This document shows positions 44,650 to 48,616 of a DNA stretch of 64,000 nt, piece by piece (the stretch's first letter is position 1; every line of letters begins with the position of its first letter). The position numbers were made by a program, and so were the translations under genes. The stretch spans positions 620,001-684,000 of the forward strand of contig NZ_LT900021.1 of assembly GCF_900198835.1 (NCBI RefSeq). The letters run 5' to 3'. This stretch comes from Thermococcus henrietii. GTDB taxonomy: Archaea > Methanobacteriota_B > Thermococci > Thermococcales > Thermococcaceae. Under the pieces are notes generated by a model. The model was not told where the DNA came from and did no database searches. It saw only the letters and a list, made by a program, of their open reading frames with translations.

Positions 44650-45381
44650 ATGCTGGAGAAAGAGAAGGAAGCGCTCGCAAAGCGTATTGCAGGTGAGATA
44701 ACACTCTCTTCTGACCCCGGAAAGACTATGCGGAAGTGGCGTGAAATCTTTGGAATAAGCCAAACTGAGCTGGCCGAGCATCTAGGGGTTTCCTCCTCGG
44801 TTATCAGCGACTATGAAGGAGGGAGAAGGAAGAGCCCCGGTGCCTCTACGATACGGAAGTTCGTTGAGGCCCTCTTGGAGATAGACGAAAAGCGCGGCGG
44901 GAACGTCATCAAGGCATTCAGCAAAACGATAGAGGGTGAGCTTCCCACTAGTGCAATCCTCGACATAAGGGAGTTTGCAATTCCAGTAAAGATTTCGGAC
45001 GTCGTCGAGGCCGTTCGGGGAGAGGTCGTTGCCAATCCACATCTCCTCGACAGACGCATCTACGGCTACACCGTCGTTGACAGCATAAGAGCCATCCTCG
45101 AGATGAGCAGTGAGGAGTTCCTCAAGCTCTACGGCTGGACCACGGAGAGGGCCCTCGTTTTCACGAAGGTAACTACCGGGAGAAGCCCTATGATAGCCGT
45201 TCGCGTTCAGGGGTTGAAGCCGGCTGTGATAATCCTCCACGGCGTCGAGAGACTTGATGAGCTGGCGGTCAAGCTTGCGGAGCGCGAAGGTGTTCCCCTC
45301 GTTGTGTCAAAGGCATCGGGAGAAACCGAACTTATAAACTCCCTCAGAAAACTTGTTGAAAAAACGGAAAAGGAATTTTAA
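44650..45381 (+). CDS. XRE-family HTH transcriptional regulator with C-terminal sensor-like domain
   Basis: 243-residue archaeal transcriptional regulator. HTH: MRKWREIFGISQTELAEHLGVSSSVISDYEGGRR (residues about 27-60, key parts ISQTELAEHLGVSSSVISDYE). The C-terminal half (VYDVVEAVRGEVVANPHLLDRRIYGYT region, ALVFTKVTTGRSPMIAVRVQGLKP) is conserved in the COG1709-like group but unassigned. GGCTTATAACC (about 44619-44629) is the TATA element. It converges with the phosphopantothenate synthetase gene with a 4-base overlap. Confidence 0.82.
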   Translation: MLEKEKEALAKRIAGEITLSSDPGKTMRKWREIFGISQTELAEHLGVSSSVISDYEGGRRKSPGASTIRKFVEALLEIDEKRGGNVIKAFSKTIEGELPTSAILDIREFAIPVKISDVVEAVRGEVVANPHLLDRRIYGYTVVDSIRAILEMSSEEFLKLYGWTTERALVFTKVTTGRSPMIAVRVQGLKPAVIILHGVERLDELAVKLAEREGVPLVVSKASGETELINSLRKLVEKTEKEF

Positions 45382-46160: not shown

Positions 46161-46285
46161 TCCAACCACCGGAGGCCTTTCTCCCAAGCCCTAATAAACC
46201 TGTCCCAACTGGCCCCACAGAAAAAGCCGGCTCGTCCCTCCTTTTGGCCGGAAAAGGGTTCTAAACCTTTGGTTCAAGAAAACCG

Positions 46286-46345
46286 TATAAACCCTTGGTT
46301 CAGAACGTTTGGTGAACAAAAGTGTTCCCGTGAACGGGGGTGTTC
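46286..46345 (+). promoter_or_regulatory. NfnSL promoter with SurR-like site and tandem GTGAACnnnnGTGTTC repeats
   Basis: TATAAA at 46286-46291 is the core promoter. GTTCAGAAC at 46298-46306 matches the SurR GTTn3AAC core, just downstream of the TATA element, a position usually linked to repression. Two tandem 16-base copies of GTGAACnnnnGTGTTC follow (46312-46327 and 46330-46345, 18-base period), reaching the RBS. All motifs are seen; the regulator assignment is inferred. Confidence 0.7.
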
Positions 46346-46348
46346 ATC

Positions 46349-47200
46349 TTGGGGTACCGGATTACCGCGAAGGAGGACCTGAGTCCGATAGACTATTTCG
46401 TCGAAGTGGAGGCCCCGCACGTTGCCAAGGCCTGGAAACCGGGCCAGTTCGTCGTGTTCATCCTCCACGAGAAGGGCGAAAGGGTTCCGATGTCCGTCTA
46501 CAAGGCGGAGGACGGAAAGGTTGGAATGTTCATAAGGAAGCTCGGAAAGACAAGCTTACAGCTCTACCACGAGTATAAGCCCGGAGACGAGCTCTGGAGC
46601 TTTGTCGGGCCCCTTGGAAAGCCGATTAAGGTCAAGAACTACGGCAGGGTGGCCTTTGTTTCAGATGCGGTCTGCGGTCAGGCCGAGAACTACGCGACGC
46701 TCAAGGCGATGCGCGAGGCAGGTAACTACACGATTTCCGTCCAGACCTTTGAGGACAGGGAGAACGTTTACCCGATGCGCTTCCTCGCGAGGGAGGTGGC
46801 GGACGAGTACTACCTGACGACCCTTGACGGTTCCGTCGGAATAAAGGGCCACTACCTCGACGTCGTGAAGGAGCTCATCGAGAAGGACAAGGTCGACATC
46901 ATCTTCGCCGGCGGAAAGCTGGGTTCGCTCGCTAAACTTGCAGAGCTCACGAGGCCCTACGGAATCCCCACCTACGCGACGGTGAGGCAGATTATGGTGG
47001 ACGGAACCGGTATGTGCGGTTCGTGCAGGGTCCTCTACGACGGGGAAGTAAAGTTCGCCTGCAGGGACGGGCCGGTCTTCGACGCCCACAAGATTGACTG
47101 GGAGGACGCGATTAGGAGGAACGCGGAGCGCTTTGCAGAGCAGGAGAGGCTCGCCAAGGAGCGCTACCTCGAGTACCTCCGCGCCAAGGGGGTGATTTGA
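46349..47200 (+). CDS. NADH-dependent ferredoxin:NADP oxidoreductase small subunit (SudB/NfnS)
   Basis: About 283-residue FAD-binding subunit of the electron-bifurcating NfnSL complex (formerly sulfide dehydrogenase SudB). FAD domain with KPGQFVVFILHEKGERVPMSVYKA, NAD-binding half IIFAGGKLGSLAKLAEL, and C-terminal 2Fe-2S Cys in GTGMCGSCRV plus FACRDGP. The start is unusual: TTG at 46349 with GGGGGTG 6 bases upstream is preferred, GTG at 46340 is an alternative. Adjacent (0 bases) to the large subunit gene. Confidence 0.9.
   Translation: MGYRITAKEDLSPIDYFVEVEAPHVAKAWKPGQFVVFILHEKGERVPMSVYKAEDGKVGMFIRKLGKTSLQLYHEYKPGDELWSFVGPLGKPIKVKNYGRVAFVSDAVCGQAENYATLKAMREAGNYTISVQTFEDRENVYPMRFLAREVADEYYLTTLDGSVGIKGHYLDVVKELIEKDKVDIIFAGGKLGSLAKLAELTRPYGIPTYATVRQIMVDGTGMCGSCRVLYDGEVKFACRDGPVFDAHKIDWEDAIRRNAERFAEQERLAKERYLEYLRAKGVI

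Positions 47201-48616
<1,416 letters not shown>

Follow-up and report, generated by a model that had tools for sequence, protein, structure and literature searches.

Organization of the nfnSL locus

The DNA analyzed here (the window) is a stretch of 64,000 nucleotides from the genome of Thermococcus henrietii, which was searched as one contig of 2,155,760 bases. Within it lie the nfnSL genes. NfnS matches NF004862 (sulfide/dihydroorotate dehydrogenase-like FAD/NAD-binding protein) and has a PF10418 Fe-S domain, and a phosphopantothenate synthetase gene (NF041123) is divergent from nfnSL. Adjoining the latter gene, nfnSL is likely to be of the FNOR2 type, whose gene order we take to be TK1684-1686. 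In T. kodakarensis, the relevant text of PMC12016516 assigns FNOR1 to TK1325-1326 and FNOR2 to TK1684-1685. Reading from 46258 to 46351, the nfnSL promoter presents a long SurR motif on the plus strand, BRE and TATA elements, a long SurR motif on the minus strand overlapping the TATA box, four TGnnCA boxes, a Shine-Dalgarno sequence inside the last boxes and the start codon TTG at 46349:

46258..46274, plus strand: upstream SurR site (uSBS), GTTCTAAACCTTTGGTT, an exact GTTn3AACn5GTT long motif
directly before 46286..46291, plus strand: BRE-like CAAGAAAACCG, predicted from the sequence
46286..46291, plus strand: predicted TATA box TATAAA, kept in the listed orthologs
46290..46306, minus strand: downstream SurR site (dSBS), GTTCTGAACCAAGGGTT on the minus strand, an exact long motif
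46313..46318, plus strand: putative operator box 1, TGAACA, at the transcription start expected from TATA spacing
46323..46328, plus strand: putative operator box 2, TGTTCC, differing from TGnnCA at one letter
46331..46336, plus strand: putative operator box 3, TGAACG
46336..46342, plus strand: predicted Shine-Dalgarno GGGGGTG, from the sequence and the listed orthologs
46341..46346, plus strand: putative operator box 4, TGTTCA, predicted by symmetry; overlaps the end of the Shine-Dalgarno sequence
46349..47200, plus strand: nfnS, stop codon included, probable start TTG 46349
47201..48616, plus strand: nfnL (TIGR01316 gltA, NADPH-dependent glutamate synthase family, 770 bits)

The promoter elements reach upstream to 46258, past the interval that had been singled out in a sequence-only reading of the window. 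From the spacing to the TATA box, transcription is expected to start around 46313. The start codon of nfnS is probably TTG 46349 and not GTG 46340, with which the longest open reading frame begins, because the orthologs carry ATG, GTG or TTG at the former position or one codon on.

SurR sites in the nfnSL promoter

A SurR-like core, GTTCAGAAC, had been proposed to lie just after the TATA element. This core is present at 46298-46306, TATAAA being at 46286-46291; taken as a bare 9-mer it is unremarkable (one match in the 64-kb window versus 0.58 expected). The label was correct and, if anything, understated, as the promoter carries a pair of long SurR motifs, the first ahead of the TATA box and the second overlapping it. 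The 17-base form searched, GTTn3AACn5GTT, is the long SurR motif as defined in a passage of PMC12162507. Five matches to this motif, GTTNNNAACNNNNNGTT, were found in the 64-kb window versus 0.37 expected, a number reached by none of 100 shuffles. Two are at the nfnSL promoter, and three, mutually overlapping, are at 2227-2257. The latter precede a hydrogenase beta subunit paralog (match starting at 2321), which is likely to be a SurR target.

Conservation was followed in 61 nfnS orthologs, of which 48 belong to the genus and 13 to other genera of its family; genomes in which the best nfnS match was a distant paralog were excluded. The uSBS is unbroken in 59 of the 61. The dSBS, which includes GTTCAGAAC and overlaps the 3′ end of the TATA box, occurs in long form and reverse orientation in 38, and at least two short GTTn3AAC cores are found in 46 of the 61 promoters. 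A SurR ortholog is encoded in the T. henrietii genome beside pdo; it matches the solved PF0095 protein (1.1e-89) and has cysteines C24 and C27 (residues counted by eye), and the region between its gene and pdo holds a long SurR motif. Hence, both features looked for in a SurR regulon, the gene itself with its CxxC at 24/27 and a promoter motif conserved beyond chance, were found.

The FNOR1 and FNOR2 promoters of T. kodakarensis belong to the same operon type and likewise have SurR motifs. SurR sites reportedly lie both upstream and downstream of the TATA box at the two FNOR operons. At the FNOR2 promoter, reduced SurR is described as binding the SurR sites and activating (PMC12401011, in a passage citing Hidese 2017). 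Because this control has been published for T. kodakarensis FNOR2, we count the SurR half of the finding as known biology.

A four-box array in the nfnS leader

The sequence-only reading had also noted tandem repeats running into the ribosome binding site. In the entire 2.16-Mb genome the repeated 16-mer, GTGAACNNNNGTGTTC, has just two occurrences, 46312-46327 and 46330-46345, both in front of nfnS and offset by 18 bases. The last GTG, at 46340, belongs to the Shine-Dalgarno sequence GGGGGTG (46336-46342). To follow the repeats across species, nfnS leaders were aligned without gaps (61 orthologs, 59 used, 48 unique). Their conservation, which had been proposed as a check and whose absence would have counted against the idea, was borne out in a more general form than the one written: the conserved words are TGnnCA boxes and not GTGAAC/GTGTTC. 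Together the boxes form a 34-bp array, TGnnCA-N4-TGnnCA-N2-TGnnCA-N4-TGnnCA (46313-46346), whose successive boxes begin 10, 8 and 10 bp from one another and are separated by spacers of 4-2-4. It begins at the expected transcription start and runs to the Shine-Dalgarno sequence. The two 16-mers with their 18-base period are the halves of this array, since a box 4 at +28 completes the four-box symmetry.

The copy in the window is itself imperfect in box 2. A three-box pattern is matched with at most one mismatch by 46 of the 61 leaders, from which the pattern was itself derived, and 7 of the 61 show three or more mismatches. In two leaders (L135 and L148, from genomes G022 and G066) the array is degenerate or lost with the upstream SurR motif retained; these are possible natural losses. 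An exact palindrome, GTGAACANNNNTGTTCAC, present in 8 of 61 genomes and at nfnS only, had suggested a site particular to one gene, an idea that was dropped when the loosened TGnnCA form exposed a shared gene set.

Recurrence of the array at other genes

The three-box pattern learned from the nfnS leaders, TGNNCANNNNTGNNCANNTGNNCR, was searched in the 61 genomes. It gave 76 exact matches, distributed over 44 genomes, versus 7 for the reversed pattern. Twenty-nine of the matches are nfnS itself. Among the remaining 47, 40 were assigned by hand and 7 were left over, some of these inside genes. Assignment relied on fetched sequence or coordinates, save that the G048 ABC permease and the second of two copies alike (L201 and its counterpart) were placed by site likeness only; genes were named through NCBIfam and Pfam for one representative per main class and by eye for the others. 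The two largest groups outside nfnS are glyA (serine hydroxymethyltransferase), with 10 matches, and xfn, with 9. They are followed by fdhA (formate dehydrogenase alpha), with six entries that correspond to five places, and by a TRAP-TAXI receptor, with 3. Two matches each fall at gcvPA (glycine dehydrogenase subunit 1), HydB (the beta subunit of NADPH-hydrogenase I), an amino-acid permease and an ABC permease. Single matches lie at an OPT transporter and between a transporter and a glycosidase. At L201 and at G028:C1:602352-602375 the same array sequence is found in two genomes (2 matches); in the copy fetched, no gene is evident downstream.

A YR-centred form of the pattern had 8 matches with at most one mismatch in the T. 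henrietii genome versus none for its reverse; they include nfn, xfn, glyA, an aminotransferase and an ABC permease. Seven further genomes yielded 45 matches versus 5 reversed, totals in which some near-symmetric sites enter twice, once per strand. The xfn promoter of T. henrietii (L222, G000:C1:2121841-2121864) has the same layout as that of nfnSL, with SurR motifs and an array running into the Shine-Dalgarno sequence. From its distribution, the array looks like an operator shared with genes of glycine/serine, amino-acid and formate metabolism and with hydrogenase.

The pattern was then scored in individual promoters, taking the best match between -200 and +25 of the start and, for glyA, the aminotransferase and HydB, the 30 best-matching of the 61 genomes. 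Among these, the glyA promoters had the array in 17/30 cases at one mismatch or less and 21/30 at two or less, the aminotransferase promoters in 20/30 and 29/30, and the HydB promoters in 12/28 and 21/28, two having been dropped for short upstream sequence. In dinucleotide shuffles, each set produced 0 to 0.1 matches at one mismatch or less and 0.3 to 0.75 at two or less; at 1 mismatch, the reversed control matched 6 of 30 glyA and 2 of 30 aminotransferase promoters. The hydrogenase I promoter of T. henrietii (L324) has 3 mismatches. For xfn, in 40 chosen genomes plus T. henrietii, 37 of 41 promoters matched at one mismatch or less and all 41 at two or less, versus 0/41 for the reversed pattern at two or less, and the position of the array is fixed relative to the start, at -36 or -39. 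Random 225-bp windows matched in 1 of 2941 cases at one mismatch or less and in 83 of 2941 at two or less. These counts are to be read with the knowledge that nfn and xfn are paralogs and that genomes of one genus are non-independent.

The fourth box

A fourth box was sought at +28 because the second repeat of the window and a formate dehydrogenase promoter (L169) hinted at symmetry. With three of its four letters required, 97 of the 138 distinct instances, drawn from seven gene classes, carry it. By distinct sequences, it is present in all xfn (32/32) and aminotransferase (17/17) promoters, in 31/53 for nfn, 4/5 for formate dehydrogenase and 1/2 for glycine dehydrogenase, and is weak at glyA (7/17) and HydB (5/12). 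Between +23 and +34, boxes at any other downstream offset are few, the most frequent being those at +30 in 13/53 nfn and at +31 in 7/32 xfn sequences. Box-like words also occur upstream in the xfn set, whose members are closely alike (-14 in 21/32, -12 in 17/32). At nfn and xfn, box 4 coincides with the Shine-Dalgarno sequence and its spacer, so that translation could maintain it there.

Nature of the array

One way to account for the array would be for SurR to act alone, with the GTTC and GAAC words serving as further weak half-sites. The window copy is rich in these words, and SurR sites adjoin it. However, what the array keeps is TGnnCA with variable inner letters and a 10/8/10 spacing, a design that is not based on GTTn3AAC, and a profile averaged over classes (glyA, aminotransferase and gcvPA included, along with one spurious xfn row) is unlike the SurR motif. 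We regard this explanation as improbable.

The sequence-only reading had envisaged two layers of control, at transcription and perhaps at translation. The number two stands; the translational layer lacks support. An RNA element would require the repeats to pair in the mRNA leader so as to hide or expose the Shine-Dalgarno sequence. The 37-nt leader of the window does fold at -11.8 kcal/mol (z -2.48, with 5 of 200 shuffles as good), and covariation links leader columns 14 and 23, which are paired in 37 of the 48 unique leaders, the strongest signal of all column pairs tested. Against this, a 55-nt leader of the window has a z of -0.02, and the adjoining column pair 15-22 is paired in 20 of 48 leaders, barely above the 16 expected. 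The 61 leaders have a median z of -0.52 at 37°C, and their median MFE at 85°C is 0.0 kcal/mol; z falls below -2 in 4 of 61 at 37°C and in 6 of 61 at 85°C. Moreover, at glyA and gcvPA the array lies upstream of the apparent TATA box, hence outside any mRNA. As the leaders are predicted to be unfolded at 85°C, RNA-level control is unsupported, and the hairpin model, unstable at that temperature and at odds with arrays upstream of the TATA box of other genes, was rejected as very improbable. The covariation of columns 14 and 23 may reflect dyad symmetry.

The array could also represent nothing but conserved core-promoter or initiator sequence combined with the surroundings of the Shine-Dalgarno sequence, and serve no dedicated regulator. 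It does span, at nfn and xfn, the interval between the expected start site and the Shine-Dalgarno sequence, which box 4 overlaps. Its rarity (8 occurrences at one mismatch or less in 2.16 Mb), its enrichment at a coherent gene set and its location upstream of the TATA box at glyA and gcvPA speak against such an origin, to which we give very little credence. Least probable of all is an operator of the Tar (TK0271) type: this aromatic amino acid regulator of Thermococcales resembles the array in its TGnnCA half-sites (TGGACA-N8-TGTCCA) and in having activation sites upstream of the TATA box, but its operator consists of two boxes separated by N8 instead of four with 4-2-4 spacers, its genes sit in aro operons and its targets, as named in the text of PMC6737238 dealing with it, are a different set (aro, trp and tyr-phe). 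Most likely, the second layer of control is the operator of another transcription factor, shared with other operons.

Two probable superimposed inputs at the nfnSL promoter

Taken together, the arrangement of motifs makes it probable, in our judgment, that two inputs are superimposed at the nfnSL promoter, one from SurR and one from a second putative regulator acting on the four-box array. SurR would bind the two long motifs, the upstream one in an activating position and the downstream one, overlapping the TATA box, in a repressing position. The second regulator would bind the 34-bp array, where the bound protein would block RNA polymerase. Repression is thus predicted at nfn, xfn, hydrogenase I, formate dehydrogenase and the aminotransferase, where the array occupies the leader or the vicinity of the start codon. 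Activation is predicted at glyA and glycine dehydrogenase, where by-eye reading places it just upstream of the TATA box, because archaeal activators bind there. The motifs and their places, their conservation, the common gene set and the symmetry of the four boxes are observed; TATA boxes outside nfn were assigned by eye, and we infer the sign of regulation, the binding of a protein and the effector. SurR would report the sulfur/redox state and the second factor probably amino-acid or reductant status.

Accounts of electron flow in Thermococcales are usually framed in terms of SurR. If correct, the present proposal would add a second master input tying carbon/nitrogen status to redox balance, and the defined 34-bp site would be usable as bait for its binding protein. 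We know of no four-box operator described at the T. kodakarensis FNOR promoters, and a search of the open-licence PMC literature found no description of this operator or of its gene set.

Candidate regulators

An XRE-type HTH regulator (HTH_3) is encoded close to nfnSL, at 44650-45381 of the window, convergent with the phosphopantothenate synthetase gene; nothing was found tying it to the array. Regulators of the Lrp/FFRP family in Thermococcales (CopR, FL11, LrpA) act on amino-acid and central metabolism and bind as multimers to spaced sites. The T. henrietii genome has 11 Lrp-domain matches. No array within 2 mismatches was seen upstream of these genes, a weak result as several gene starts were misplaced and the loci unoriented, and it is on this footing that the family was set aside. 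The motifs that we take to be those of FL11, TGAAAnnnTTTCA, and of FL10/LrpA (GTTCGA-type) do not fit the array. Nor, by reading, does the CopR operator, which lies upstream of the BRE and whose motif is given as TTNNCAWWWTGNNAA in a passage of PMC7830388.

The leading candidate, still unproven, is an ACT-domain regulator of the TrpY family. The TRP box of Methanothermobacter TrpY, TGTACA, is one TGnnCA word; the boxes of the array keep the general form TGnnCA. Unlike its Methanothermobacter counterpart, the Thermococcus homolog does not regulate trp according to the portion of PMC6737238 that concerns it: there, T. kodakarensis TrpY (TK1227), at high concentration, made no distinction in binding between the trp promoter and a control, and a strain deleted for it grows more slowly, trp not being its target. 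In genome G011, a gene of this family was identified by its match to NF053754 (196.9 bits versus a cut-off of 180); the C-terminal stretch of the protein is ACT-like, with an ACT domain match just under cut-off. Around this gene, in G011 only, no array with one mismatch or less was found in the surrounding 60 kb, and a lone TGnnCA word lies upstream; its own promoter thus lacks autoregulatory boxes of the TrpY type.

We tentatively imagine, as a possibility that we hold to be rather doubtful, that the TrpY-family ACT protein is a global amino-acid sensor which, on four-box arrays and jointly with SurR, would balance NADPH/ferredoxin metabolism against amino-acid catabolism. The NADPH/ferredoxin set would comprise nfn, xfn, hydrogenase I and formate dehydrogenase, and the other side glycine/serine and amino-acid catabolism; the protein would activate from upstream of the TATA box and repress from the leader. 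Were this so, it could provide a function for the T. kodakarensis protein, whose deletion slows growth in the work cited above (PMC6737238, same portion). The G011 gene (L389, 15309-15806, minus strand) is directly upstream of what, read by eye, appears to be a membrane-bound sulfane reductase (mbs) operon, and GTTn3AAC cores lie between the two.
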